DNA of 24,413 nt, taken from IMG/VR virus record IMGVR_UViG_3300046758_000235, positions 1 to 24,413 of that record. One strand, written 5' to 3'. The stretch is from a virus. The notes below the pieces were generated by a model. That model searched no databases. It was not told the origin of the DNA and was given only the letters and a program-made list of their open reading frames with translations. The position numbers were made by a program, and so were the translations under genes. How positions within the stretch are numbered: position 1 is the first letter of the stretch; every line of letters starts with the position of its first letter. This document shows, piece by piece, positions 4,919 through 23,641 of the stretch.

Positions 4919-5124
4919 TCTAAACCTAGCTGTATTAATCTTGCATTAATTCTATGTATTTCGTCTTTTAAATAAAGTTTCATAGTTTTCATTTTACGAA
5001 CTTCATCTGTAACTGTCATATTATTATACTTTACTTCTAGCTCAGTGTCAAGCTCTTTATGCTTTCTTTCTAGCTCAATTAAGTGGCTTTTCAGTTTATC
5101 TTCTTCCAATTCATAGTTGCTCAT
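4915..5124 (-). CDS. Small coiled-coil protein, DUF465/YdcH-like
   Basis: A 69-residue, almost wholly helical protein. The layout is a helix with HLIELERKHKELDTELE, a short break, then a basic helix MKTMKLYLKDEIHRIN. This is the arrangement of the DUF465/YdcH family, whose members read 'L-x-x-x-H-x-x-L-D-x-x-I' and then 'L-K-x-x-K-L-x-L-K-D-E-I-x-R-L'. That family is common in proteobacteria, including Alphaproteobacteria, and its function is unclear. The gene overlaps the preceding transglycosylase-like gene by 14 bases and the following gene by 4. A consensus promoter lies inside it. The family assignment is by eye. Confidence 0.65.
   Translation of the reverse strand: MSNYELEEDKLKSHLIELERKHKELDTELEVKYNNMTVTDEVRKMKTMKLYLKDEIHRINARLIQLGLE
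5023..5051 (-). promoter_or_regulatory. Consensus sigma-70-type promoter inside the DUF465-like gene
   Basis: On the minus strand a perfect TTGACA (5046-5051) and a perfect TATAAT (5023-5028) are separated by exactly 17 bases. Transcription would start near 5016, about 100 bases before the ATG of the 173-aa gene at 4918, so it could drive that gene and those after it. Lying inside a coding region it could be chance, but a full 12/12 match at ideal spacing is rare. Confidence 0.6.
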
Positions 5125-6640
5125 CCTCGAGATCCTCTAACTTAGTTTCATCTAAAATTTCTTCATCTTCAACAACTGATTCTTCTACATCAAACAGTGC
5201 GTTAAAGTGTGTACTAGCGTTCATGGTCTTTTTACCAATTGCACCTCTAGTACCTGGAATAGTCATCCAAAACTTTGAGTACTCGTCAATTTTTGCAAGT
5301 GCTTGTTCTTTATTATCGATAGCAAATATTTCATTTATTACATCTCTAAAGAATACTCTATCAAATGTTTCTTGCACAAGCATTTTTGGAATAATTCCGT
5401 TGTCGTATTGTCTGTTTGCTTCTTGTACAGCATTAACATGACTCCATACGTTATGACCCATTTGAATAGCATAACTAAAACTATCCCATGATGTCTTTCC
5501 TTCTTTACCTATCTTGTTTAAATCTCCTGGAGCATATGTACAAACGTCTGATACTTTGAGTCCGTCTGTAAGCGGCGAGTCTTCAAAGTTTTTAAATACC
5601 CCATCTGATATAACAGTGTCTCTAAATCCACGGTTGTCTGTAGCATATTTTTTATTGTCAACACTCGGCACCATACGATACGTCCACTTGCTTCTGTCTT
5701 CAGTTTCATTCTGAATGTAGATTTGTCCATTCGCGGTTGCGAGGAAAGGACTAGCACAGTCAAAGGTAATAGTAAAGTTCTCATTATAGTTCTTTCTTAC
5801 TGCTCGTTGTATGTCTGTTAGTAGCGTAGCCCATTCTAGTTTAGATGTGCCTAAGAAGTGCATTACATCATGTATGCCTGTTTGTAACAGGTTATCGTAA
5901 TGCAATGTAACTATGCGTTTAAGAACCAAATGCACATCGCACATGTTCTGTCCACCCATTGACCATCCGTTAAAATGATTGTCAGGATACTTAACTGGGT
6001 CACAGTAGTCTTTCATCTGCTCGTACCAGTCATCTGCGTCTGTATGATTCTCACCTTGTAAAACATTAAGGAACTTACAAGCACCTGTTCTATGTTTCAT
6101 CCAGTAGTCGTTGTTAATACGTGTTGCTTTTACAGCCTCATCGTATGTACTAATGCCTGTTGCTTTTGCACCTTCTGGTGAACGTGCTACCCAGGCTGGA
6201 ATATCAAGTATCATTCCATAGTCCATGTAAGCGTCCATCCAACGCAATACACCGTCTCTTTTCTTTTGTGCTTTAGGACAATTAGGATCTTTCCAATCGC
6301 CTTCCCAAACACCTTTACCAATTTGGAAACCACCTGAGTCTCCTAATATCCAAGTATTGTCTCTATCTCTATTACGCACCATATCTTCTTTAGGTGCGTG
6401 TTTGTTAACATCAAGTTCAGCATGTCCTGCTGAGTACAGTGTCCATTTGTATTGGAACTGTCCTTCTTGCTTATTAAGATAGTTTAGACTTTCTACACCG
6501 TGTGTAAAGTTGCTAGGTATACGTGACTTATCAACATACTCGTCATACCGTTGCTTACCTACGTAAGTAGCATAAAAGCCACTTAGTGCAGGTAAAAAAC
6601 GTGCATAATCTTTCTGTTCTGCGGTTAAGTCCTTACGCAT
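5111..6640 (-). CDS. tRNA-guanine transglycosylase superfamily enzyme, DpdA-like (candidate DNA 7-deazaguanine transglycosylase)
   Basis: A 509-residue protein with the TGT barrel motifs in order. ILGDSGGFQIG (98-108) matches the TGT substrate-binding motif with its conserved Asp101. GWSMGG (225-230) matches the glycine-rich base-recognition loop, HFLGTS (261-266) the 'Y-L-M-G-x-G' strand, and ITFDCASPF (291-299) the 'F-D-C-V-x-P' strand with the candidate nucleophile Asp294. The C-x-C-x-x-C...H zinc site of tRNA-type TGTs is absent, and the C-terminus is very acidic. TGTs swap guanine in RNA; DpdA relatives swap it in DNA for preQ0-type bases, and phages carry them. A QueD-like gene follows in the same cluster. 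DpdA-like is preferred over a true tRNA enzyme but is not proven. It follows gp45 by 3 bases. Confidence 0.7.
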   Translation of the reverse strand: MRKDLTAEQKDYARFLPALSGFYATYVGKQRYDEYVDKSRIPSNFTHGVESLNYLNKQEGQFQYKWTLYSAGHAELDVNKHAPKEDMVRNRDRDNTWILGDSGGFQIGKGVWEGDWKDPNCPKAQKKRDGVLRWMDAYMDYGMILDIPAWVARSPEGAKATGISTYDEAVKATRINNDYWMKHRTGACKFLNVLQGENHTDADDWYEQMKDYCDPVKYPDNHFNGWSMGGQNMCDVHLVLKRIVTLHYDNLLQTGIHDVMHFLGTSKLEWATLLTDIQRAVRKNYNENFTITFDCASPFLATANGQIYIQNETEDRSKWTYRMVPSVDNKKYATDNRGFRDTVISDGVFKNFEDSPLTDGLKVSDVCTYAPGDLNKIGKEGKTSWDSFSYAIQMGHNVWSHVNAVQEANRQYDNGIIPKMLVQETFDRVFFRDVINEIFAIDNKEQALAKIDEYSKFWMTIPGTRGAIGKKTMNASTHFNALFDVEESVVEDEEILDETKLEDLEDEQL

Positions 6641-7434: not shown

Positions 7435-8142
7435 CTATACTTTATTTAGGTTTTTTAATTTATCTTGCGTGTCTTTCCAGGACTTAACATGGTAAGTTTG
7501 TCCACGCTTGATAGCTCTTGCTAAAGGTTCATCATTTCCTCCAGCATCCATTCTGTCTCCAAAGAAATGAATGAAATTGTTTTCGTCAAAATCTTTTAAG
7601 ATTTGACTTTTGTCTGCTCCAATAGGTGCGATATCAATGCCAGTGTCTCCACCCGGCCTTGCTTCTAAGTAATCAAACTCTCTATTGAATAGTTCTGCAA
7701 TATATGTACGTTCGTTGTGTAACTTATCGTACTTTACATATTGCTCTCTTTGTTCTTGTGTTGCGTTACGACCTACAATACTAAAGTTAACCATGCCTGT
7801 TCGTTCTTCTATATGATTGCCTGTGCGTATTTTAAATGCGCTTTCTTCTAGTTTCTCTTCTAACCATGTTTTTGCAGAGTGTGGAATTTTCCAATCATTT
7901 TGGTCTATGTTTTTTGAACCTTTCCAAACATCACTACCGGAGCAGTTATATACACGTTTGCAAAGACTGTATATTTCCTCTCCTACTTGTTCTATTGTTT
8001 TTTTCCTATCACTACCTGTTACAAGATATACATCATTCTCAGCACAGAAGGTACTAAAGAATACAGCAAAGTCTCCATCCATTTGTTGTCTGCTAGGGGT
8101 TAGTGTTCCGTCGACGTCGAATATAAATTTATGTTGTTTCAC
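7435..8142 (-). CDS. HAD-family phosphatase/mutase resembling eukaryote-type phosphomannomutase
   Basis: I chose the GTG at 8140-8142, which has GAGAG upstream and gives 235 residues (V/MKQHKFIFDVDGTL). An earlier GTG at 8169 would add nine residues. Asp9 and Asp11 form the HAD D-x-D motif. NFSIVGRNATQEQREQY (from 119) matches the substrate-binding cap of eukaryotic phosphomannomutases, and FIHFFGDRMDAGGNDEPLA (from 190) matches their Mg-binding motif, where the family reads F-F-G-D-x-T-x-x-G-G-N-D-x-E. Those enzymes interconvert mannose-6-phosphate and mannose-1-phosphate. The neighbouring cytidylyltransferase and cupin suggest a nucleotide-sugar or surface-polymer pathway. It could instead be a simple sugar phosphatase. 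It overlaps the preceding gene by 14 bases. Confidence 0.75.
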   Translation of the reverse strand: MKQHKFIFDVDGTLTPSRQQMDGDFAVFFSTFCAENDVYLVTGSDRKKTIEQVGEEIYSLCKRVYNCSGSDVWKGSKNIDQNDWKIPHSAKTWLEEKLEESAFKIRTGNHIEERTGMVNFSIVGRNATQEQREQYVKYDKLHNERTYIAELFNREFDYLEARPGGDTGIDIAPIGADKSQILKDFDENNFIHFFGDRMDAGGNDEPLARAIKRGQTYHVKSWKDTQDKLKNLNKV

Positions 8143-8545
8143 GTTGTGTAACTCTCTTTCTAAGATCACTCGAACTAAATCTATGATCTCGTTTGTTAAA
8201 GTATATGTCTATGTCTCTTTTACGACAGATATCTCTGCCAGTAAAATCTTTATCCCTATATTCTTCGCCAAGTACACGAACATTTATTGTGTACATGCTT
8301 AGTATGTCTTCTAGGTCTTGCTCCGTTCCATACGGAATAATTTCGTCTACGTAACCAACTGCTTTAAGTTGTGTGTAACGTTCTATAATTGTTTGTACAG
8401 GAGGATTCTTTTCCTCTCTATCTACACTTGGATCAACTTGCAATCCTACTAGTAAATAGTCACACTGGTCCTTTGCTTCACGTAACATTTGTACATGTCC
8501 TGCATGTAATAAGTCAAATGTACTACAAGTAAATCCTACCTTCAT
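8129..8545 (-). CDS. Glycerol-3-phosphate-type cytidylyltransferase (TagD-like)
   Basis: A 138-residue single-domain nucleotidyltransferase, the usual length for TagD (129 in Bacillus). HAGH (14-17) is the H-x-G-H nucleotide-binding motif and RFSSSDLRKR (122-131) is the R-x-S-S-T-x-x-R motif with Thr replaced by Asp; REEKNPPVQTIIERYTQL fits the substrate-side helix. Family members use CTP to activate glycerol-3-phosphate, ethanolamine phosphate or a related phosphosugar. The gene overlaps its neighbours on both sides and lies between a cupin and a phosphomannomutase-like gene. The substrate is uncertain. Confidence 0.8.
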   Translation of the reverse strand: MKVGFTCSTFDLLHAGHVQMLREAKDQCDYLLVGLQVDPSVDREEKNPPVQTIIERYTQLKAVGYVDEIIPYGTEQDLEDILSMYTINVRVLGEEYRDKDFTGRDICRKRDIDIYFNKRDHRFSSSDLRKRVTQRETT

Positions 8546-12380: not shown

Positions 12381-13880
12381 CTATTTCCCCTCATACCAGT
12401 TTGATAAAAACTTGTAATGGTTTGGAAACAAGTCAAGTGCTAGTTCAGTTTGTCTACGTTTGCTTTCTACAAAATAATTCAAGTATTCATCTTCCTTTGG
12501 TGTGTTCTTCTCCGGATCAATATATCCGCCGCCTGCTTGTATCATACTCCACCATTGTACACTAGAAAACATACTTTGTCTAGTTAAAAACATAATAGGC
12601 TTAGGATATGGATAATAAGCATTGAATACGTTTATACAGTCATCTGGCAAATCCTTTAAAGTCTTAGAACGTATGTTATCCCAATACGGTGTACCTTTTT
12701 TATTACTAAAGAAGTAATGTCCAAATATGAAACTTAGTATTTCAATATTCATTTCATAGAACGATTGGTTAATAGCACCACGTACATCATCATTCCATTC
12801 TCCGTTTGCCATACCAATAAAGTGTGCAAAGTTACGTATAGTACTAGTAGTAAAAGTAATACCTGTTGCTTCTAATGGTTCTACAAAGCCTCCTGCTAGT
12901 CCTACTGCTAATACGTTTTTATGTGCAACTGCTTGGTGTGTTCCGCATTTCATCTCAAGATGTTTTGCTGGAGCATCATATTCGCCTACTGCTTCACGTA
13001 GTTCTGCTTCTGCTTGTTCAGGAGTAATATAGTCACTGCTATAGCAATAACCATTACCAATTCTATCATACACAGGAATAGTCCAACGCCAGCCAGCATC
13101 CATAGCCGTTGCTTTTGTATACGGGTGACATTCTTCTTCTGGGTTAGTGTATTGTGTTTGTAATGCTACTGCACGATCATTTGGTAACCAAGGTTTAAAA
13201 CTTATAAACTGTTGTTCAAGTTTTTGTTCTAATAGTAAAGACTCAAAGCCTGTGCAATCCATATAAAGGTCTGCTTCGTAATTAACACCGTTTTCATCTT
13301 TAAGATAACTAATGCCGTTTACATCTGTACCAATATCAACAATGTTAGTATCAACGTATGTGATTCTGCTTATAATTTTACTTTTAATTGCATCAATAAT
13401 TTTGTATGCATCAAAGTGTACAGCACCAAAGCCTTCATCGCCGGTATTAAAATTACAGTCCATATCTTTTGTAAGTTTAGGACTTTTATTATTTTTTGCT
13501 AGTTGATATGCAGGATACCAATCTAAAAATTCTTGATAAGTTTTATTAGCAAATGCTTTGTTTGCAAATAAGTCAGGAGTAGCAAGATAGTTAACAGGAT
13601 CATCGTTGTCAACAAAGTATGGATCATCGTTCCATCCTTCTAGCATAACTCCGTGTTTGAATGTTGCATTACTTGCTGGCATCCAATCATGCGGTTGTAA
13701 TCCACACTCATATAAGAAACTTGCTGTTGCTGGTTGTGTACCTTCGCCTACGCCTATGGGACCTTTTGATGCGTCCTCTATTAGAGCTACTTGTACTTGT
13801 TCTGGAAGGTTGTTTGTTAAAAATGCGGCTGTAAGCCATCCGCTGGTGCCGCCACCAAAGACTATAATTTTTTCTATCAT
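12381..13880 (-). CDS. Flavin-dependent (tryptophan-type) halogenase
   Basis: A 499-residue flavoprotein with the signature of flavin-dependent halogenases. GGGTSGW (9-15) is the FAD-binding G-x-G-x-x-G variant, FKHG with Lys75 matches the catalytic lysine of PrnA-type enzymes, WRWTIP (264-269) is the diagnostic W-x-W-x-I-P motif that blocks monooxygenation, and FVEPLEATGITF (332-343) is the conserved chloride/FAD region. These enzymes use FADH2, O2 and halide to form a lysine-bound haloamine that halogenates an aromatic substrate. A cyanophage homologue, VirX1, is an established halogenase with a preference for iodide. The substrate here is unknown. GAGGAAAAC precedes the ATG, and gp43 follows with no gap. 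Confidence 0.92.
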   Translation of the reverse strand: MIEKIIVFGGGTSGWLTAAFLTNNLPEQVQVALIEDASKGPIGVGEGTQPATASFLYECGLQPHDWMPASNATFKHGVMLEGWNDDPYFVDNDDPVNYLATPDLFANKAFANKTYQEFLDWYPAYQLAKNNKSPKLTKDMDCNFNTGDEGFGAVHFDAYKIIDAIKSKIISRITYVDTNIVDIGTDVNGISYLKDENGVNYEADLYMDCTGFESLLLEQKLEQQFISFKPWLPNDRAVALQTQYTNPEEECHPYTKATAMDAGWRWTIPVYDRIGNGYCYSSDYITPEQAEAELREAVGEYDAPAKHLEMKCGTHQAVAHKNVLAVGLAGGFVEPLEATGITFTTSTIRNFAHFIGMANGEWNDDVRGAINQSFYEMNIEILSFIFGHYFFSNKKGTPYWDNIRSKTLKDLPDDCINVFNAYYPYPKPIMFLTRQSMFSSVQWWSMIQAGGGYIDPEKNTPKEDEYLNYFVESKRRQTELALDLFPNHYKFLSNWYEGK

Positions 13881-14174: not shown

Positions 14175-14449
14175 AGTGCGGCAACTCCGTATCCGTATAC
14201 ATTAACTACTGCAAAGTAGCCAGTTAATAACATTACCCAAGCGGCGCCTCTTCTAACTGCGGCGTAGCATTGTGTAACCGATCCTATAAAAAAGAACGGA
14301 TATATAATTAACATGTTTGGGTCTCTAGCGTTTAGTGCAAGTGTTAAACTTGCCGCTACAGTGAACACAAAACTAACGAGTTCAAATCCAAAAGCAATTT
14401 TATCACTCTTAAAACTCTCTATCCAAAAATCTCGTATTCGGCCTATCAT
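14165..14449 (-). CDS. Small membrane protein, 94 aa
   Basis: After a basic and aromatic N-terminal stretch (MIGRIRDFWIESFKSDK) there are three hydrophobic segments at about residues 22-41, 46-62 and 69-92, separated by short loops with RDPN and RRGA. The gene overlaps the DsbA-like gene by 4 bases upstream and the 72-aa membrane protein by 10 bases downstream. The pattern of tryptophan, tyrosine and short helices recalls PnuC/YgjV-type membrane proteins, but at this length I would call it only a small multi-pass membrane protein. Confidence 0.7.
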   Translation of the reverse strand: MIGRIRDFWIESFKSDKIAFGFELVSFVFTVAASLTLALNARDPNMLIIYPFFFIGSVTQCYAAVRRGAAWVMLLTGYFAVVNVYGYGVAALWW

Positions 14450-14706
14450 TTGTCATAACCAAGCGTAACGATCAATGTTTCTAGATCGTCATAGGCATCT
14501 TGATGATTCTCCCAATCACGTTTCTGTGCAATCTTAATTGCTTTATTAATAAGACTTGGTTTAATATCCATTTCTTCTGCAACTGCTTTTACAGTTTCTT
14601 TAAGACCTAGATTCAAATCTTCTACTTCTTGTAGTACTGTTACGCCTTCTTTTACTAGGCGCTCTAGTTTAGCCTTTTCATCGGCTCCATAGGTGCGTGT
14701 ACCCAT
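14446..14706 (-). CDS. dsbA: DsbA-like double-strand DNA-binding protein (T4-type transcription modulator)
   Basis: An 86-residue, mainly helical, charged protein: EEKAKLERLVKEG-type N-terminal helix, a second helix with LKETVKAVAEEM, and IKPSLINKAIKIAQKRDW as a helix-turn-helix-like segment. It resembles the short proteins annotated as DsbA in T4-like cyanophages. T4 DsbA (89 aa) binds double-stranded DNA near late promoters and modulates late transcription. The gene stands first behind a perfect consensus promoter (14734-14762) with AGGAGA before its ATG, and leads into the membrane-protein pair. The assignment is from remembered family likeness and size, so it is moderate. Confidence 0.6.
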   Translation of the reverse strand: MGTRTYGADEKAKLERLVKEGVTVLQEVEDLNLGLKETVKAVAEEMDIKPSLINKAIKIAQKRDWENHQDAYDDLETLIVTLGYDK

Positions 14707-14771: not shown

Positions 14772-15380
14772 TTACTTTTTGGCATTTAATCTTGCCCACA
14801 GTTGATCTTTAATAGATACTACTGATTCGGACTTTGCATTTTTAGTTGCAGTTGCGTACATAACTGCTTCTGCGTCTTTGCCGTAACGCTTCTTAAAGTC
14901 GTCTTTGTTCTTTTTCATACCTTTGACGTACTTTTCTTTTTTATTTTCTTCACCTTTAGTAAGAGGACGTTCGTTAAGCATTGCTTCTAATGCTTCAATT
15001 CTACGCTCTAATTGAGTAATGCGATCTTCTTCTGCTTCGCCAACTAGTTTGTTTCTAGCAGGATGTGGAGATTCGTTGCCACCTGGAGTAGCACTTTTGG
15101 TAATTGCGTCTTTGCCTTTTAGTTGTCCTGCACTGCCTGTTTTTTGTTTGCCTTCTGTAAGACTAACTCCGGCTAATGCCGCAAAGTCTGACATACTATA
15201 GTCTTTGTCCATTTGTAGTGACCCTTGCGGTACATCTACACTTTCTTGTACAATGTTTTGTGGAACTTGTACACTTTCTTGCGGTTGACCTCCAAGGTCT
15301 GCCAACATCTTTGCCTTATCTGCGGCACGGTCAGTTGGTTCTATATCGAATAACTTCTGTTGGAGATCGTGAAAGTCCAT
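14772..15380 (-). CDS. Low-complexity probable head/internal protein, 202 aa
   Basis: The first half is rich in Gln, Ser, Val and Ala and contains DYSMSDFAALAGVSLTEG; LTE-G at 74-77 fits the T4 prohead protease site pattern (L/I)-x-E before A/G/S. Next come a short coiled coil (RITQLERRIEALEAMLNE) and a basic C-terminal module (EKYVKGMKKNKDDFKKRYG, then KDAEAVMYATATKNAK). I recall that last module from hypothetical proteins of marine T4-like phages. There is no catalytic motif. It shares one base with the preceding gene and is the last gene before the strong promoter. A virion role is inferred from company and composition. Confidence 0.7.
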   Translation of the reverse strand: MDFHDLQQKLFDIEPTDRAADKAKMLADLGGQPQESVQVPQNIVQESVDVPQGSLQMDKDYSMSDFAALAGVSLTEGKQKTGSAGQLKGKDAITKSATPGGNESPHPARNKLVGEAEEDRITQLERRIEALEAMLNERPLTKGEENKKEKYVKGMKKNKDDFKKRYGKDAEAVMYATATKNAKSESVVSIKDQLWARLNAKK

Positions 15381-16504
15381 TACTTACCGCCGCCTCCGCC
15401 ACCTGTACTTTTTATAGGCTTTAGGCTTTTGGCTTGAATATTACTTGGTTTTATATCTGCTGGAGCAGTAGGTGGTGTTACTGATGCTTTTAGTTTTTTC
15501 TTTAACTTTTCTGCAATCTGTTGTTTGTAACTATCTGTACTTTCGGCATGCATTGCGGCCATATGCTTTTTGTACTTCTTAGTACCTTTTTTATGTGGTG
15601 ATTTACCTTCGTCTACTTTAGGATCGTTACAGTTGCAATGTTCACAAGTAGGTTTACATTCACAGTCTTCTCTTTTAACATCTCCGCCACAGCACTTGTC
15701 TGAACAATGTGTATCTTTTTGTGATTCATCCATTTGCTGATCGTCACCAAACTTTTGATCATATTCCATATTATGGAACACACTACTCATATAGTCAGCG
15801 GCTTTAGTAATTTTAGCCTGTTGCCAACCTTCTAAACCTTGTTCTTCGTCTACACCTTTTAACATGTCGTGTAGTTTAATGGCATACTTAGCAATCTTAT
15901 AAAGATCAGCTCTTGCCATTTGCACTTCGTGATCAGCTTCTGCTTTGTAAGCTAAATCTGCTAATCCTTCTTTAATTGCTTTACCCATAATATCTTCCTT
16001 TGTCTTGGTGCTCTTAAGTGTCCAATCTTGATCGTTAACTTTTCTAATCATGTCAGCGTCAAGTGCATCTATTGCACCTTTATGTACTACTTGTATTCTT
16101 CCATCTTTTGTAAGTTTTGAAACTTTACCTTTTGCTAGTTTGCCTGTGCGTGGTAGTTCGTATGCTATTTCATCTTTAGGTTTAACAACAACTATCTTAC
16201 CTTTGCTTACACCTGTTGGAAACTGTGAATTCTTAGTAGGCTCTTTTTCGTCCTTCTTGTCCTTACCTTTTTCTAACGGCTTTTTAGCATCTACTGGATC
16301 CTTAGTTGGTACAGTATTTTTAGATTTAACTTTCTCGTCTTTATCTTTATCTTTTTTATCGTCTACTTTACCAGGTTTAGTAAAATAGTCTTTGATAGTA
16401 CGCTCTAAAGAATCAGGAGCCAATGCACCACCTTTTTGTGTAGCATTATAACCTGTTGCAACTCCTCTTTGGAATGGACCTTCGTTTATATCTTTAACTC
16501 GCAT
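15380..16504 (-). CDS. Lysine-rich probable internal/head protein with cysteine cluster, 374 aa
   Basis: The N-terminus MRVKDINEGPFQRG has INE-G at residues 6-9, a match to the T4 gp21 cleavage pattern. Residues 45-95 are almost all Lys, Asp, Glu and Pro. A helical block (DLYKIAKYAIKLHDMLKG, 200-217, to about 250) resembles segments of cyanophage head-associated proteins. Residues 267-292 hold eight cysteines (267, 271, 272, 281, 283, 287, 290, 292), a likely metal site, followed by HKKGTKKYKKHMAAMHAES and a terminal run of six glycines. No enzymatic motif is seen. The gene begins right after a GATAAATA motif. A packaged or scaffolding role is likely but inferred. Confidence 0.72.
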   Translation of the reverse strand: MRVKDINEGPFQRGVATGYNATQKGGALAPDSLERTIKDYFTKPGKVDDKKDKDKDEKVKSKNTVPTKDPVDAKKPLEKGKDKKDEKEPTKNSQFPTGVSKGKIVVVKPKDEIAYELPRTGKLAKGKVSKLTKDGRIQVVHKGAIDALDADMIRKVNDQDWTLKSTKTKEDIMGKAIKEGLADLAYKAEADHEVQMARADLYKIAKYAIKLHDMLKGVDEEQGLEGWQQAKITKAADYMSSVFHNMEYDQKFGDDQQMDESQKDTHCSDKCCGGDVKREDCECKPTCEHCNCNDPKVDEGKSPHKKGTKKYKKHMAAMHAESTDSYKQQIAEKLKKKLKASVTPPTAPADIKPSNIQAKSLKPIKSTGGGGGGK

Positions 16505-16508
16505 ATTG

Positions 16509-16516
16509 TATTTATC
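16509..16516 (-). promoter_or_regulatory. T4-late-promoter-like GATAAATA motif
   Basis: GATAAATA on the minus strand, one base from the T4 late -10 element TATAAATA, lies 4 bases before the ATG of the cysteine-cluster protein and overlaps the upstream stop codon. The short distance would give a nearly leaderless mRNA, which weakens the call. Confidence 0.3.
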
Positions 16517-16928
16517 GCTTCTTGTTTAGATGCTTATCTTTTATTGCACCCTTCTCTTCTTCGCTTGCGCCATTGCGTCCTGCTTTTTGTAATTCTTCAA
16601 AACCTTTTTTGCCGTACTTCTTAATACCTGTGTAACGCTGTAAGCCACTTTCTTTTGTAGCTTTGTCTTTCTTTTTAGGTTTACGTGATTGTACTGCACC
16701 TAACGGCATTGCTACAGCCGCTACTCCACCTGCTACAGTAGTTTCTTGCATCTTTGCTTTATTAGCCGCAAGCTCTTTACGCTTCTTATCAATATGGGCT
16801 TGTGTATCTTTGTCCATTCCGTCTGGTGATTTACGAATTTCTCTTTCTAAAGAATCTAAATCTTTAGTATGACGCAGATTTTTTGCCTTGTCAGTTTCAG
16901 TTTCATTAATTAGATCTAACATTTTCAT
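16512..16928 (-). CDS. Basic probable internal/head protein, 138 aa
   Basis: Begins MKMLDLINETETDK, another short hydrophobic-acidic N-terminus like those of its neighbours. The rest is very rich in Lys, with a charged helix (about residues 20-58), a neutral patch TTVAGGVAAVAMPLGAVQSR (63-82) and a C-terminal module RYTGIKKYGKKGFEELQKAG (97-116) with RNGASEEEKG after it. I associate both the GGVAAVAMP patch and the KYGKKGF-x-x-LQKAGR module with proteins of marine T4-like phages. No enzymatic motif is seen. The ATG overlaps the preceding stop by 4 bases. Confidence 0.7.
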   Translation of the reverse strand: MKMLDLINETETDKAKNLRHTKDLDSLEREIRKSPDGMDKDTQAHIDKKRKELAANKAKMQETTVAGGVAAVAMPLGAVQSRKPKKKDKATKESGLQRYTGIKKYGKKGFEELQKAGRNGASEEEKGAIKDKHLNKKR

Positions 16929-18490
16929 TTTTTGCCACCTTTCATATTAGCACACCAGTGATACATTTTAGCACGTTCACCTGATGCGTTTTTTGCTTTT
17001 TTACGTAAACTGGTTACGCTACCATTGCAACTAGCACCAGACTTCTTTACTCTGCCTGGTCTGCTTTTGCCTTTTTTCTTACCGTCAGCAAAGTTTTCAT
17101 TAGTTTCTTTATCTTCTTTGTCTTTCTCGTACTTCTTAATAGAATCACGAGCTACTTTGATCATTGCTTTGTCGTGTTTAGCAAGTGTACGTTTTGTTTT
17201 CTCTCTTTTTTCATCAGCATATGTTTCTTTTACGTTTTCTACTACGTCATCAATCATATGCACACGAGCATATTCTTCGCCTACTAAACGCAATGCATCT
17301 AGTCTATGATGTCCGTTAACTACTCTGCCCTTACGATCAATTTGTAATGGAGCATAGTCGTCTTCTAATACACGTTCAAGTTGCTTTGCTAATTTTTCGT
17401 ATGTTCTTTCTTTTTGTACACCACGTAACTTAGATATTTTAATTTTACCTAATGGGCCTTGGCCTTTCATTTGTGGAGGTGCTTCTCCGCCAGTTGGCTC
17501 TTCATCATAGTGTGTATCTTGATAACCTTGTGCATCTTGTGTTTTATAACCAATACGGTTAAGTTGCTTCATAAGATACTTCATTTCTTTTTGCCCAGCA
17601 TAAGGAGCAATAACTACATCAGGCTCATCATAGTTTGCACCCTTTGGAACTGTTTTTAAGTTTGCTAAGTTTGTGCCTACTTTATAATGATCGTATGCTG
17701 TGTCTGATTTTGTAATGAATGTATTTTTAGGATTTGGTATTAAAGCGCCTTCTTCTACATCAGCGTCCATATGTTGCTTAATGTTTTTAGCAGTACGTTC
17801 AAATTTATGGTCTTTGTGTTTAAACCCTATGCCACCTGCGGCTTCCCAAGCACTAACATTAACACCGTAGTCGTCAATTAATATGTTTGGAGTACCATCT
17901 TGTTGTTTTGCATATTGTGGTTTATTATGTGTAATAATAATTTCTTTAGGTGGAAAAAACGCTAGGTTCTTTTTAATCCATTCTTTTTTGTGAGGTACAC
18001 TATTTTCATCACCTGGTAACGGTGAACTACAAATACTATACGAACCTTTTACTTGTTTAATTAATTTTAACAAGCCTTTAGCATTATCTGTTAATGGTAA
18101 GTTAAGCCAAAAGTCATCTGTGTTTTTAATTTTTTCTAGTGCTTGTTCTACATCTTTAATATCACGGAAACTGTCTACGCCCATTAGTTTAGCCCAGTCA
18201 CCAAAGAAGTCTGCAAGTACACCGTCCATGTCTACATATATTTCTGTAGCACTTGCAATTTCACCTAGTGCTTCTGCAAAGTCTGTTGACTCTGTTACCA
18301 TGCCTAAGTTAAACAATACGTTTGTACTTTTGCCTTTTACTTTTTTGCTTAGTGTAGGCGGACGTCCGTCTTTGTCTACTGTGTTACCAAACTTAGCCGC
18401 TTGTATTTTAATTTCGTCAGGACCTACGTCAACAGTAGTGTTAACACCTTTTACAATTCTTCCGTCTTCATATAGTTGACGTAATCTCAT
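16925..18490 (-). CDS. Multidomain protein: deoxyribonucleotidase-like HAD domain, ParB-like domain and cysteine-containing C-terminal module
   Basis: A 521-residue mosaic. It starts MRLRQLYEDG, like its neighbours. Residues 83-245 are a HAD domain like 5'(3')-deoxyribonucleotidases: DMDGVLADF (87-95), SICSSPL (152-158) and ILIDDY (203-208). Residues 250-345 are unassigned. Residues 350-415 resemble a ParB/Srx-type domain, with PLQIDRKGRVVNGHHRLDAL (381-400). A Lys-rich stretch leads to a C-terminal module (about 473-521) with SCNGSVTSLRKKA and AKMYHWCANMK. The HAD domain would remove phosphate from dNMPs. Such a fusion inside a block of presumed virion proteins suggests a packaged enzyme, or a cytoplasmic enzyme with a virion tag. 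Domain calls are by motif; the packaged role is inference. Confidence 0.78.
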   Translation of the reverse strand: MRLRQLYEDGRIVKGVNTTVDVGPDEIKIQAAKFGNTVDKDGRPPTLSKKVKGKSTNVLFNLGMVTESTDFAEALGEIASATEIYVDMDGVLADFFGDWAKLMGVDSFRDIKDVEQALEKIKNTDDFWLNLPLTDNAKGLLKLIKQVKGSYSICSSPLPGDENSVPHKKEWIKKNLAFFPPKEIIITHNKPQYAKQQDGTPNILIDDYGVNVSAWEAAGGIGFKHKDHKFERTAKNIKQHMDADVEEGALIPNPKNTFITKSDTAYDHYKVGTNLANLKTVPKGANYDEPDVVIAPYAGQKEMKYLMKQLNRIGYKTQDAQGYQDTHYDEEPTGGEAPPQMKGQGPLGKIKISKLRGVQKERTYEKLAKQLERVLEDDYAPLQIDRKGRVVNGHHRLDALRLVGEEYARVHMIDDVVENVKETYADEKREKTKRTLAKHDKAMIKVARDSIKKYEKDKEDKETNENFADGKKKGKSRPGRVKKSGASCNGSVTSLRKKAKNASGERAKMYHWCANMKGGKK

Positions 18491-18705
18491 TTTGTGCGTC
18501 CTCTAAATTGCGTTGCACCTGTCATATAAGGTTTTGAAAACCATAACTTGAACCAGTCTTTATCACCAGGTTTTAATCCTAGTTCTTTTTCTTTTTTCTT
18601 TAGGACTGCGGCAGTTTCGCTAGGATTTTCATCTATTTGGTATTCTGTGTAACCTTTAAATTCACCTACGCCTGCTAGTCGCTTAATGTCCTGTAGTTCG
18701 TCCAT
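18487..18705 (-). CDS. Small hypothetical protein, 72 aa
   Basis: A short frame overlapping the stop of the nucleotidyltransferase gene by one base and the next gene by 4. It begins MDELQDIKRLAGVGEF, a short helix with an RLAG ending of a type I have seen at the start of small marine-phage virion proteins. The rest is polar, with a Lys/Glu-rich helix (LKKKEKELGLKPGDKDW) and an aromatic patch (WFKLWFSKPY) before a basic end. No domain is recognised. Confidence 0.65.
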   Translation of the reverse strand: MDELQDIKRLAGVGEFKGYTEYQIDENPSETAAVLKKKEKELGLKPGDKDWFKLWFSKPYMTGATQFRGRTK

Positions 18706-19439
18706 TATTTTATTGCACCTGATTTAAATGCATTAGGATCGCCTTTTGCAGACATTTCTCTACGTTTCTTAATTCTATCTGCAACAGTATCTTCTTCTGG
18801 TGGACGCTTCTTTACTTTTATAGTTGCACGTTTTGGACTCTTAGTAGCAAATCCTAGTATTTCGTTTGCAGGAACTTCGTCCTTAACACCCATACCTTTA
18901 CGTACAGCATCATACATTTTTTGTGCTAGATCTGGTTTAGGTACACCTTGTGCAAATGCTTCTAAGTTGCCTTCAGCGGCCGCTTGACGCATTTTACTTG
19001 CGCTCATACCTTCTGCACCATCTGCATCTGGATCACGTTCGCCTGCATTAACAACAGTAATACTATCAAAGTTATATTCTTTGCCGTTGTAGTCATTAAA
19101 CAGTTTATCAAAACTTGCTACACGATCTGAACCTGCTACATAGATAACATCTGTGTAACCTAGTTTTTCTAACATCTGTAACATTTGTATTGGTGTACGT
19201 ACTGTAGGATGTCCTACATTAACACCGGGAAAAAACTTTTTAGCAAAGTCTAATTTTATATCAAACGGTAATGGATTGTCTTTTGGTTTTTGTGTTTGGC
19301 TTAAAAATATATAATGATCGCCTTGCTGTTTCATAACAGCCTTTACAAGTTTTTCGTGACCAATAGTTGGCGGATTCATTCTTCCAAATGCCGCTACTGC
19401 TACTTTCTTAGGTGCTTCGAATAACTCTCTTAGGAACAT
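18705..19439 (-). CDS. Cytidylyltransferase-like nucleotidyltransferase with a putative capsid-targeting N-terminus
   Basis: The N-terminus MFLRELFEAPKK has LFE-A at residues 6-9, fitting the T4 prohead protease pattern. The enzyme domain follows: VAVAAFGRMNPPTIGHEKLV (13-32) with TIGH as the H-x-G-H motif, VAGSDR (101-106), and GMSASKMR (144-151) as the I-S-S-T-x-x-R motif. Similar proteins in T4-like cyanophages are annotated as nucleotidyltransferases, with NMN- or cytidylyltransferase-like folds. After about residue 190 the protein is basic (SPKRATIKVKKRPPEE and on). It overlaps the preceding gene by 10 bases. The substrate is unknown: adenylyl transfer to NMN, or cytidylyl transfer, are both possible. 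Confidence 0.8.
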   Translation of the reverse strand: MFLRELFEAPKKVAVAAFGRMNPPTIGHEKLVKAVMKQQGDHYIFLSQTQKPKDNPLPFDIKLDFAKKFFPGVNVGHPTVRTPIQMLQMLEKLGYTDVIYVAGSDRVASFDKLFNDYNGKEYNFDSITVVNAGERDPDADGAEGMSASKMRQAAAEGNLEAFAQGVPKPDLAQKMYDAVRKGMGVKDEVPANEILGFATKSPKRATIKVKKRPPEEDTVADRIKKRREMSAKGDPNAFKSGAIK

Positions 19440-19768
19440 TTATAGATACCCTTTTTGATATTAGGCATTTCTTCTTGTTCTATTTTATTACAACATGCGT
19501 CTATGTCTTCGCTTGTAAAAACATCCTCAGGACGTTTGTTAGGTAGATACTTTTTACAGTAACTTTTTATACCTTTATCAACTAAAGGGCGCATCATAAC
19601 TTTAGGATCTATTGAATCACCACGTTCTAATTTATCACTAACATCTGCCATTGCTGGGAAAAATGTTTTACGATAGAACATAGGATCGTTACGCATATAG
19701 ATAGATACATCGTCTGCTACATCAAATGGTATTTTATCTTTTTGTAATTCTAGTTCAAATAGTTTCAT
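19430..19768 (-). CDS. Hypothetical protein of the virion-protein block, 112 aa
   Basis: I chose the ATG at 19766-19768 (MKLFELELQKDKIPFD) because AGGAAG lies 7 to 12 bases upstream and because the longer frame from 19825 would overlap the preceding gene by 56 bases. The start then lies just 1 base after the preceding stop. The protein is acidic-to-neutral and helical, with FFPAMADVSDKLERG in the middle and four cysteines in the C-terminal half (SYCKKYL, DACCNKIE, YKCS). No domain is recognised. The N-terminus resembles the short leader-like N-termini of neighbouring genes. Confidence 0.72.
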   Translation of the reverse strand: MKLFELELQKDKIPFDVADDVSIYMRNDPMFYRKTFFPAMADVSDKLERGDSIDPKVMMRPLVDKGIKSYCKKYLPNKRPEDVFTSEDIDACCNKIEQEEMPNIKKGIYKCS

Positions 19769-19769
19769 A

Positions 19770-20366
19770 CTACCACTTCCTGCAAGACCAATAACGTGCC
19801 TTAGTACGTGGACCTGGGTTATCACAGTTGTGTCTTGCTCTGAATGAACGTCTACGTGCAGGGTTAGATTTTTTAATCTTCATTGCTTTACCCTTAACAC
19901 TTGATCCGCCATGTCCAAAGTTTACTTTTTTAACATTACCTGTCTTTGGATCTTTGACGTATACTTTAAATTTCTTAACATCACCTTGCATAGGCTTGCC
20001 AAGTTTAACTTTACGGCCTTGGTATTCTGCTTCGTCTATCGGGTCATCATCTTCATTGTACCACATAACACCGTACTGTTCATAAAATTCATCGTCGTCT
20101 TCGTATGTTTCTTCGTCTTCATCAATAGCGCCGTCTGCTGATATTTCAATATCAAAATCTTCGTAGCCTTGTTCAAAAACAAAGTTTGCTAATTTGTTTG
20201 CAAATTCGTCTGCTTGCTCTTCGCTTAATGCTGTAGGTAATGGCATTTCAAATATACTAGCACCTTGCTCTGATTCATAAATTGCACTTCCTGGAAATAC
20301 TGACTCATTTAAACTTTCGTTTAAATTATCTTGTTTCTCCATCACTACTCTAATAAAATGTTCCAT
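19770..20366 (-). CDS. Probable head protein with multiple prohead-protease-like sites and a basic cysteine-containing C-terminus
   Basis: A 198-residue protein starting with ATG after AAGGCGG. Within residues 15-32 three sites fit the T4 gp21 pattern: LNE-S at 15-18, LNE-S at 19-22 and IYE-S at 29-32. The middle is strongly acidic (about residues 75-115). The C-terminus is basic: KVKLGKPMQGDVKKFKVYVK, then VNFGHGG and the ending RARHNCDNPGPRTKARYWSC. I recall this ending from several proteins of marine T4-like phages, but cannot give its function; the paired cysteines and His could bind metal. A processed head or core protein is the best inference. Confidence 0.72.
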   Translation of the reverse strand: MEHFIRVVMEKQDNLNESLNESVFPGSAIYESEQGASIFEMPLPTALSEEQADEFANKLANFVFEQGYEDFDIEISADGAIDEDEETYEDDDEFYEQYGVMWYNEDDDPIDEAEYQGRKVKLGKPMQGDVKKFKVYVKDPKTGNVKKVNFGHGGSSVKGKAMKIKKSNPARRRSFRARHNCDNPGPRTKARYWSCRKW

Positions 20367-21411: not shown

Positions 21412-23641
21412 CGACTTGACCTTCAGACTCTAGAACAAATGCGCCGTCCTTAAAGTCAACAGTTACCTTGCCGCCATCTTTTAAACTACCAAATAATAGT
21501 TCTCTTGACAGTGGACGTTTGATCTCTTTATCGATAACTCGTTGTAAAGGTCTTGCACCCATCTTACTATCAAAGCCTTTTTCAACTAATTGATCTAATG
21601 CTTCATCAGTAATAATAATATCTACTTGCTTATCCTTAACCATATTTTTAAGTTCAACAAGGAACTTGCCAACAATCTTCATCATTATCTCTTTGCCTAA
21701 TTTAGCAAATGTAATTGTTGCATCAAGTCTGTTTCTAAATTCTGGTGCAAAGAATTTTTTAAGTTCTTTATCTTCGTATCCTGCGCCATCAAAGTCTTCG
21801 TCAAATCCAATAGTATTTTTCTCTGCTTCTTTAGCACCTAAGTTAGTAGTAAGAATTAGAATACAATTACGTGCATCTGCTTCTCTACCATTAGAGCCTG
21901 TAACTTTACCATTGTCCATAACTTGTAATAAAATCTGTGATACGTCTGGATGTGCTTTTTCAATCTCATCTAGTAGTAATACACAATTAGGATTCTCTTG
22001 AATTTTCTCAATAAGTAACCCACCTTTTTCTTCGTGTCCTACATATCCTGGAGGTGAACCTAACAGTTTAGCAACAGCATGTTTCTCTTGATACTCTGAC
22101 ATATCAAAACGTACTAGTCCTACACCAAGTGCCGATGCAAGTTGTTTTGCTGTTTCTGTTTTACCTGTACCTGTTGGACCCATAAACACAAACGAACCTA
22201 CTGGCTTGTCTTCCGGTTTAAGTCCTGCTTGTGCAACTAAAATTTTATCAACAATACTTTCAATTGCTTCGTCTTGTCCGTATACTTGACTCTTAAGATT
22301 CTTTTCTAAGTTAGCAAGATTTTCTGTTTCACGTTCTGCTACTTGCTCTTCAGGCAAGTTTAACATTTTACTAAGTTCAAATTGTACACTACTTTCATCA
22401 ACAATTTGTTGCTCAGGTGGTATTTCTTTTAGTTTAAATCTTGCACATGCAACATCTAACAAGTCAATTGCTTTATCAGGTAGTTTCTTGTCTGCTTGAT
22501 ATTTCACACTTAGTTTTACAGCCGCTTCAATAGCATCATCAGTAATTACAGTTTTGTGAAAATCTTCGTAGTACTTTTTAATACCATGTAAGATATCTTT
22601 TGTTACTTCTGAAGTTGGCTCATCAACTGTTACACGTTGGAATCGACGCATCAATGCACGATCCTTTTCAAAGTACTTGCGGTATTCATCCCAAGTAGTT
22701 GACGCAACAACTTTAATGTTACCTTTACTTAGTGCTGGCTTTAGCATATTAGCAAGGTCATTTGCACTGTTGCCGCCACCTGCGCCTGCACCACTTATCA
22801 TGTGTGCTTCGTCAATAAACATAATTGTTTTGCCTTTGCCTTTTAAACCTGCTAGTACAAGTTTAAAACGTTCTTCAAAGTCACCTCTATATTTTGAACC
22901 TGCTAGTAGCGATCCAATATCAAGGTTATAAACATTGTATTCTTTTAAAAACTCTGGAACTTGATCGTTAACAATTTTCCATGCTAGACCTTCTGCAATA
23001 GCAGTTTTACCAACACCTGGATCACCAACTAGTAGTACGTTGTTCTTTTGTCTACGTCCTAATGAAAGAGCAATGCTTTCAATTTCTTCAGCTCTGCCAA
23101 TTACAGGATCAATTTTGTTTTGCTTAACTTCATCATTTAAGTTTGTTGTAAATGCTCGAAGTGCTTTTTGTCCTTGACCTGTTTCTGCTATGTCATCTTC
23201 TGTAGTTGTTATTTCTGTACTTACATATTCAGCAAATGCTTCTTTAGTAATACCTGCTTCTTCTAAGTAGTAAACTGCCATTGATTTCTTTTCTGCAAGT
23301 GTACTAACAAGTACATCAGTAAGATCAATTTCAGGACGGCCTTGAAACAACACTTGTGTAAATGCTCTGTTAAGAACACGTTCTACTGTTTGTGTTTTCT
23401 TTGGCTTGTATTTTGTTTCTTCTATTTTAATATCATCTAACTTAGTAGTAAGGTAATGTTCTAAATTCTTTTTAAGATAGTCTACGTCTGAGCCAAAGCC
23501 CTTCACTACGTTATAAAAATTCTCCTCACAGAGCATTGCAAACACTAGGTGTTCTAGTGTTACATACTCGTGTTGTAACTTCTTAGCATCTTTAATGCTT
23601 TTCTCAAAAACCAACTGTAATGAATTACTCGGTTCAACCAT
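21389..23641 (-). CDS. clpA: ClpA-type AAA+ unfoldase with ClpP-docking loop
   Basis: A complete 750-residue double-ring AAA+ protein (E. coli ClpA has 758). The N-domain (about 1-145) begins with the usual LEHLVFAML repeat. D1 has Walker A GDPGVGKTA (206-214), pore loop KYRGDFE (250-256) and Walker B FIDEAH (275-280). D2 has GPTGTGKT (488-495), pore loop GYVG (532-535), LLLDEIEKAH (555-564) and the arginine region EFRNRLD (634-640). IGF at 611-613, just before it, is the tripeptide loop that docks on ClpP. There is no ClpB-type middle domain, so it should feed ClpP rather than disaggregate. No clpP or clpS is in the window; host ClpP is the likely partner. It overlaps the deformylase gene by 8 bases. 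Confidence 0.93.
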   Translation of the reverse strand: MVEPSNSLQLVFEKSIKDAKKLQHEYVTLEHLVFAMLCEENFYNVVKGFGSDVDYLKKNLEHYLTTKLDDIKIEETKYKPKKTQTVERVLNRAFTQVLFQGRPEIDLTDVLVSTLAEKKSMAVYYLEEAGITKEAFAEYVSTEITTTEDDIAETGQGQKALRAFTTNLNDEVKQNKIDPVIGRAEEIESIALSLGRRQKNNVLLVGDPGVGKTAIAEGLAWKIVNDQVPEFLKEYNVYNLDIGSLLAGSKYRGDFEERFKLVLAGLKGKGKTIMFIDEAHMISGAGAGGGNSANDLANMLKPALSKGNIKVVASTTWDEYRKYFEKDRALMRRFQRVTVDEPTSEVTKDILHGIKKYYEDFHKTVITDDAIEAAVKLSVKYQADKKLPDKAIDLLDVACARFKLKEIPPEQQIVDESSVQFELSKMLNLPEEQVAERETENLANLEKNLKSQVYGQDEAIESIVDKILVAQAGLKPEDKPVGSFVFMGPTGTGKTETAKQLASALGVGLVRFDMSEYQEKHAVAKLLGSPPGYVGHEEKGGLLIEKIQENPNCVLLLDEIEKAHPDVSQILLQVMDNGKVTGSNGREADARNCILILTTNLGAKEAEKNTIGFDEDFDGAGYEDKELKKFFAPEFRNRLDATITFAKLGKEIMMKIVGKFLVELKNMVKDKQVDIIITDEALDQLVEKGFDSKMGARPLQRVIDKEIKRPLSRELLFGSLKDGGKVTVDFKDGAFVLESEGQVVEEIRDN

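Follow-up and report, generated by a model that had tools for sequence, protein, structure and literature searches.

The DNA analysed here, referred to as the window, is a 24,413-base fragment from the IMG/VR virus collection that comes from a giant virus of bacteria, uncultivated and apparently marine. Jumbo phages of the T4 superfamily have the DNA polymerases nearest to that of the window (49% for Sinorhizobium phage Phosso; ~41% for Agrobacterium phage Atu_ph07, GAP32, and RaK2). Positions 14772–20366 hold an operon-like block of eight genes, all on the minus strand, which almost touch or share a few bases in overlap. In the order in which they are read, the products have 198, 112, 244, 72, 521, 138, 374, and 202 amino acids (aa), and an 86-aa DsbA-like DNA-binding protein follows. 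Four of the eight proteins begin with an 8–9-residue peptide ending in [LI]xE, here called the tag. Since T4 loads proteins into its head by similar short tags, the tagged enzymes probably travel in the capsid alongside the DNA and reach the host cell with it. The tagged proteins are listed below, with a slash marking a predicted cut.

18705–19439, minus strand: 244-aa HIGH-type nucleotidyltransferase; tag MFLRELFE/A (residues 1–8), catalytic domain at ~13–187, basic tail; phrog_3041, 1.2e-57
19416–19439, minus strand: predicted capsid-targeting propeptide MFLRELFE of this enzyme (codons 1–8), with the predicted cut between E8 and A9
16925–18490, minus strand: 521-aa protein; tag MRLRQLYE(D), NTTxD segment, 5'-deoxynucleotidase (NT5C, DMDGV intact), ParB-like part, basic C-terminal MYHWC module
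16512–16928, minus strand: 138-aa basic protein (pI 9.8); tag MKMLDLINE(T), C-terminal GLQxYTG module
15380–16504, minus strand: 374-aa protein; tag MRVKDINE/G, internal second site IKE/GL (E179) at the start of a GLADLA domain, then CSDKCCG and SPHKK modules

The tag peptides of the four proteins are MFLRELFEAPKK, MRVKDINEGPFQ, MRLRQLYEDGRI, and MKMLDLINETET, with D and T sites after the Glu among them, and all four proteins are basic (pI 9.1–9.8). A preliminary description of the window had drawn attention to the N-termini MFLRELFEAP, MRVKDINEGP, MRLRQLYEDG, and MKMLDLINET, which indeed stand at the starts of the 244-, 374-, 521-, and 138-aa proteins, with the sites LFE-A and INE-G at residues 6–9. 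A fifth N-terminus in that description, MKLFELELQK, exists in the sequence; its start is an internal ATG giving 112 aa (19430–19768), not the start of the 131-aa open reading frame (ORF).

Position and conservation of the tag

Within the window, the pattern [LIVMF]xE with E at residue 6–11 is found in 5 of the 8 block genes compared with 2 of the 26 others (p = 0.0035). Related loci were gathered using the nucleotidyltransferase and the 521-aa protein as queries, and [LI]xE[AGS] with E at residue 6–11 was counted among their clustered proteins, nucleotidyltransferases being left out. The pattern is present in 26/154 distinct clusters inside the block and 8/439 outside (p = 2.8e-10, odds ratio 10.9). 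Control windows at residues 16–21, 26–31, and 46–51 of the same clustered loci show no difference between the block and its outside. Along the gene order, the signal is up at genes +2 to +6 as well as at the nucleotidyltransferase, and down at +7. The tagged starts (MKIFEILTE/A, MKIHDIISE/A, MKVEDLVE/A, MKIFEIVE/G, MRDKEISE/G, and others) belong to many unrelated proteins, and starts of the type M[KR][IVLM]x[DE][IL]xxE recur in unrelated block families, so that one tag type precedes mature parts that are unrelated.

An alignment of 23 nucleotidyltransferases shows that E8 is invariant and that Leu3, Arg4, and Phe7 are conserved in at least 90%, while the linker from tag to enzyme differs in length. 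Substitutions were compared among 58 distinct nucleotidyltransferase starts, a set picked for Glu at residue 8, the invariance of which is seen independently in the 23-sequence alignment. The proportion of nonsynonymous differences (pN) is 0.19 in tag codons 2–8 compared with 0.35 in the linker directly after, and the proportion of synonymous differences (pS) in the tag codons is 0.82. The nucleotidyltransferase tag is under purifying selection as a peptide; conservation of a DNA or RNA element there is ruled out because the tag codons are near saturation at synonymous sites. In the predicted structure, residues 1–10 form a low-confidence appendage to a compact domain.

Relatives of the tag in proheads and virions

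The internal proteins (IP) of T4 reach the prohead core by means of a 10-residue sequence, MKTYQEFIAE in IPII and IPIII, in which residues 4 and 7 serve targeting and residues 8 and 10 serve processing (PMC9026906). The T4 enzyme Alt is cut at ITE-6 (PMC5694885). As a control, the same cut-site rule applied to T4 selected 7 of 263 ORFs, five of which are IPII, IPIII, gp22, gp24, and gp2.

In the lineage of the window, gp20 is followed by a small gene in the place that gene 67 occupies in T4, with gp68-, gp21-, gp22-, and gp23-like genes after it. This small gene encodes a gp67-like core protein that starts MILRELF, the same start as in the nucleotidyltransferases (MFLRELFEA, MLLRELFEA). Nearly all of 40 distinct sequences of this gene start M[IQNH]LRE[LFI][FY]. 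Docking in the prohead core predicts that a cargo tag copies the start of the scaffold protein, and the start shared by gp67 and cargo fits this prediction. The relative G006 (267,783 bp) carries the block and the head genes together, with gp21, gp22, and gp23 present. A broad N-terminal pattern selects 5 of its 301 ORFs; MxxRELF occurs in three of these, namely the gp67-like protein, the nucleotidyltransferase, and a 76-aa block gene, and the other two start MSALRSLL and MADLRTLL. The prohead protease gp21 was found in G006 and in all jumbo phage and Kyanoviridae records tested. Outside the block, G006 (L290–L303) also has two T4 IP-like starts at 40337–40903 and 21657–22376, MKTFADYLTE/S and MSFTNLITE/A, which are candidates for extra head cargo.

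Sullivan et al. 2010 (PMC3037559) detected a homologue of the nucleotidyltransferase in cyanophage S-SM1, a putative citidylyltransferase, in purified virions by mass spectrometry; the presence of this enzyme family in virions is therefore not new, although injected nucleotide-active enzymes of this kind were new to the author of the preliminary description. The S-SM1 gene, 190, is gene cluster T4-GC190, and its product starts MKKFSAFLNEA (MKTYQEFIAEA in T4 IPIII). Like IPIII, it has Glu at residue 10, and its residues 4, 7, and 8 are aromatic or hydrophobic.

For phage PA5oct, virion proteins were taken to be those marked in the GenBank notes as detected by electrospray ionization tandem mass spectrometry (ESI-MS/MS). 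The marked proteins include two with the starts MFLKDVKITE/S and MKIKDILVE/S and a gp67-like protein with MKINDIITE/G, and the untagged PA5oct nucleotidyltransferase is unmarked. A run of mass spectrometry-detected virion proteins also lies near primase and nrdA in L286 4760–8178 (PA5oct 154.8–158.2 kb), together with L001, L002, and L289. The position of this run resembles that of the Kyanoviridae block, which lies between gp41 and nrdA.

Proposed capsid loading and its alternatives

Targeting of the tagged proteins to the capsid is, as a prediction from sequence, well supported by the positional signal, the purifying selection, the tag in common with the gp67-like core protein, and the virion-detected S-SM1 homologue with a T4-type tag. 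Beyond this we infer core binding, cutting, packaging in the phage of the window, injection, and the substrates, with delivery into the host suggested by analogy with T4 Alt and the T4 internal proteins. Each tagged protein would be made with an 8–9-residue N-terminal peptide, M-x-[LIV]-x-x-[LI]-x-E, which would bind the scaffolding core of the prohead, as the matching N-terminus of the gp67-like protein presumably does. The prohead protease (gp21, Peptidase_S77) would then cut after the Glu and the peptide would leave, while the mature enzyme or basic protein would remain among the packaged DNA, aided by its Lys/Arg-rich C-terminal modules. At infection the cargo, a PPAT/NMNAT-like nucleotidyltransferase and a deoxynucleotidase/ParB protein, would, like T4 Alt and IPI, enter the cell together with the DNA, and would probably act on host nucleotides, cofactors, or DNA in the first minutes. 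We put the probability that the block encodes such T4-type internal head proteins of a T4-superfamily jumbo phage, loaded by the tag, cut, retained with the DNA, and entering the host, at roughly 0.78.

Several observations weigh against this interpretation. The preliminary description had treated the whole run as capsid cargo, which is well supported for the four tagged proteins; inspection of the N-termini of the 72-, 112-, and 202-aa proteins reveals no tag, and the 198-aa protein is ambiguous. The [LI]xE/[AGS] site is complete in the nucleotidyltransferase and the 374-aa protein, for which a predicted cut at the tag is well supported. The Glu is followed (at P1') by D in the 521-aa protein and by T in the 138-aa protein instead of by A, G, or S, and the predicted cut of these two proteins is uncertain; relatives of the 138-aa protein start MKMLDLINEA and MKLLDLINEA. 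The alignment of homologous N-termini that had been proposed as a check yields the invariant E8 and variable linker described above, and the nucleotidyltransferases of RaK2, GAP32, Phosso, and PA5oct have no tag; the tag is therefore lineage-specific. Across the G006 genome, the cut-site motif on its own is not clearly commoner at the N-terminus (8 under the strict definition) than in control windows (2–6), and the enrichment in PA5oct is weak (4/88 compared with 3/372, p = 0.028), with one control window reaching p = 0.05. A T4 late promoter was not found in the window (TATAAATA, 0 observed compared with 3 expected). The protease gp21 is absent from the 24-kb window and from 34 related block-bearing sequences, an absence that is uninformative because these are fragments; the link to the protease therefore rests on G006 and on the jumbo and Kyanoviridae relatives. 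When gp21-bearing contigs were searched for the block, the only match was a distant nucleotidyltransferase in G036 (32% identity).

It is possible, although we consider it unlikely, that the tag binds scaffold or capsid and is never cut, and that the proteins are retained internal or structural components of the head that are not ejected. The D and T after the Glu of the 521- and 138-aa proteins would suit such an arrangement, as would the gp67-like protein, which has the MILRELF part without Glu at position 8, and the observation that Asp at position 10 of T4 IPIII blocks processing but not targeting (PMC9026906). However, residue 9 is A, S, or G in 56 of the 58 nucleotidyltransferases while nearby linker residues vary freely, and the E/G pair of the 374-aa family is invariant even where it is now internal.

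Less probable still is that the proteins are tail or baseplate components of the virion, or early enzymes outside it, and that the N-terminal likeness is a quirk of the lineage with another role, such as binding of an assembly partner, translational coupling, or stability. The overlap of the genes by a few bases is what a coupled operon would have, and the PA5oct region from ClpA to DNA polymerase, which is syntenic with the block, has many virion proteins whose location is not assigned. On the other hand, the tag is kept as a peptide and not as DNA, it is shared with a prohead core protein, and virions contain the S-SM1 homologue, whose tag is of the T4 IP type. Chance occurrence of a hydrophobic-x-Glu motif near the starts of small charged proteins would draw on the shortness of the motif and its low rate outside the block, but is very improbable given the odds ratio, the null result at control positions, and the selection on the peptide; the positional and selection tests rule it out for the nucleotidyltransferase and 374-aa families, and it may still apply to the 198- and 112-aa proteins.

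If loading of tagged cargo into the head is correct, the N-terminal tag would provide a simple sequence rule for predicting head-carried proteins of abundant marine T4-type and jumbo phages, and the detection in 2010 of a nucleotidyltransferase among cyanophage virion proteins would become a delivery hypothesis. It also suggests that scaffold gp67 and cargo use one docking peptide, which makes the old question of how T4 internal proteins recognize the core testable. More tentatively, and with odds a little short of even, we speculate that T4-superfamily marine and jumbo phages possess a modular delivery kit, in which enzyme domains (nucleotidyltransferase, deoxynucleotidase, ParB) would be exchanged for one another and recombined with basic, DNA-associating tails behind one prohead-core tag borrowed from the gp67 scaffold, and pre-made enzymes acting on cofactors or nucleotides would arrive with the DNA before phage gene expression. 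A literature search, made largely outside subscription journals, found no paper that connects N-termini of this kind, from marine or jumbo phages, with capsid targeting in T4.

Proposed cargo, neighbouring genes, and known systems

The preliminary description had named two enzymes, a nucleotidyltransferase and a deoxynucleotidase/ParB fusion, and the nucleotidyltransferase and deoxynucleotidase assignments stand. The nucleotidyltransferase has conserved PPTIGH and GMSASKMR motifs, which correspond to the HIGH-type motif and the second conserved motif of the HIGH superfamily (PPAT/NMNAT-like), and a Rossmann-like fold. Sequence libraries label it only "cytidyltransferase"; for naming the substrate, a search of solved structures by sequence gave nothing useful, and an NCBIfam match was under the cut-off. 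The enzyme is more likely to be an adenylyltransferase that works on a cofactor precursor than a genuine cytidylyltransferase, because the predicted model best matches structures of phosphopantetheine adenylyltransferase (Foldseek E = 1e-6) and NMN/NaMN adenylyltransferase (NadM, 1.7e-5). The window has a second nucleotidyltransferase at 8129–8545, of the glycerol-3-phosphate cytidylyltransferase (GCT-like) type, which lacks the tag (MKVGFTCSTFDLLH) and serves as a negative contrast.

In the 521-aa protein, the deoxynucleotidase part has the HAD motif DxDGV as DMDGV and matches the family profile PF06941 above its cut-off (6.6e-7, 29.8 bits compared with 24.8), as well as phrog_2643 (6e-21). 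The ParB part of the claimed fusion amounts to a weak match to phrog_620 (E = 2.6e-4) over 46 residues, and no Pfam ParB match was found. The predicted structure of the 374-aa protein is of low confidence (pLDDT 57) and was not used. E179-G180-L181 of its family is invariant in 18 sequences, and in most relatives lies ~8 residues from the start Met. Because the E/GL site is the N-terminal tag in most relatives, it looks from the sequence as if a tag and a segment had been put before an older tagged protein in the window, with both sites retained. The internal site at residue 179 gives the appearance of two tagged cargo proteins merged into one precursor.

Module combinations were counted with regular expressions. 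One tag precedes the nucleotidyltransferase alone, with ParB, or with basic tails; the deoxynucleotidase with or without ParB; and the GLADLA domain with differing cysteine-rich or basic tails. The ParB half is joined to the nucleotidyltransferase in G006 and to the deoxynucleotidase in the window. Short basic or cysteine-rich C-terminal modules are shuffled among unrelated phage proteins (VKGMKK...VMYATATK, GLQxYTG, MYHWCANM, YWSC, CSDKCCG, SPHKKGTKKYK, CWKG). The remaining genes of the block and its border are as follows.

19770–20366, minus strand: 198-aa protein; E17, E21, and E31 as candidate cut sites, C-terminal module basic and with a YWSC end (phrog_7595)
19430–19768, minus strand: 112-aa protein MKLFELELQK; tag weak or absent
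18487–18705, minus strand: 72-aa protein without tag, a conserved neighbour
14772–15380, minus strand: 202-aa protein without recognizable tag (MDFHDLQQKLFDIEP); C-terminal VKGMKK module in common with tagged proteins
14446–14706, minus strand: 86-aa DNA-binding (DsbA-like) protein that borders the block; its PA5oct homologue is a virion protein detected by mass spectrometry

The three sites previously noted in the 198-aa protein are present (LNES, LNES, and IYES), the net charge of its C-terminal 60 residues is +16, and the YWSC-end module is also C-terminal on a Melnitz nucleotidyltransferase; its membership in the cargo set is uncertain. Elsewhere in the window, positions 5111–6640 encode a 509-aa protein that has no PHROG match and, judged by eye, looks similar to the tRNA-guanine transglycosylase/DpdA-like proteins involved in phage DNA modification, and a tryptophan halogenase (12381–13880; phrog_2928, 2e-100) adjoins the DNA polymerase.

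The block resembles the T4 set of IPI, IPII, IPIII, and Alt in that unrelated mature parts follow a short N-terminal peptide with [LI]xE at its end, in that the cargo is basic, and in that the lineage has a prohead core and gp21. It differs in having a tag of 8–9 residues of the MxLRELFE or MRxKDIxE type instead of MKTYQEFIAE, a cargo that includes a nucleotidyltransferase and a deoxynucleotidase/ParB protein, and an arrangement in one block near the DNA polymerase; processing and ejection of its proteins are predictions. Cyanophage T4-GC190 (S-SM1; Syn9 gp184) shares the homologous nucleotidyltransferase, an N-terminal tag (MKKFSAFLNE/A), a block between replication genes, and, by the published mass spectrometry, presence in virions. 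Its tag is of the T4 IP type with an extra segment between tag and enzyme, and the 2010 text consulted lists it among structural proteins, with no role in targeting or delivery given (PMC3037559). The PA5oct proteins EST35_0237 and EST35_0238 carry the tags MFLKDVKITE/S and MKIKDILVE/S, are ESI-MS/MS-detected, and come from a phage with gp21; the likeness noted is in the tags, and the PA5oct nucleotidyltransferase, which is untagged, is outside the detected set. Polyvalent proteins (Iyer et al. 2017, PMC5512222) are, like the cargo proposed here, multi-domain virion-packaged effectors with nucleotide-active and ParB domains and predicted delivery with the DNA. Whereas theirs is one giant polypeptide with metallopeptidase domains, the block consists of several small mosaic proteins (72–521 aa, at most two enzyme-like domains, no peptidase match in profile searches) with one capsid tag and swapped tails.

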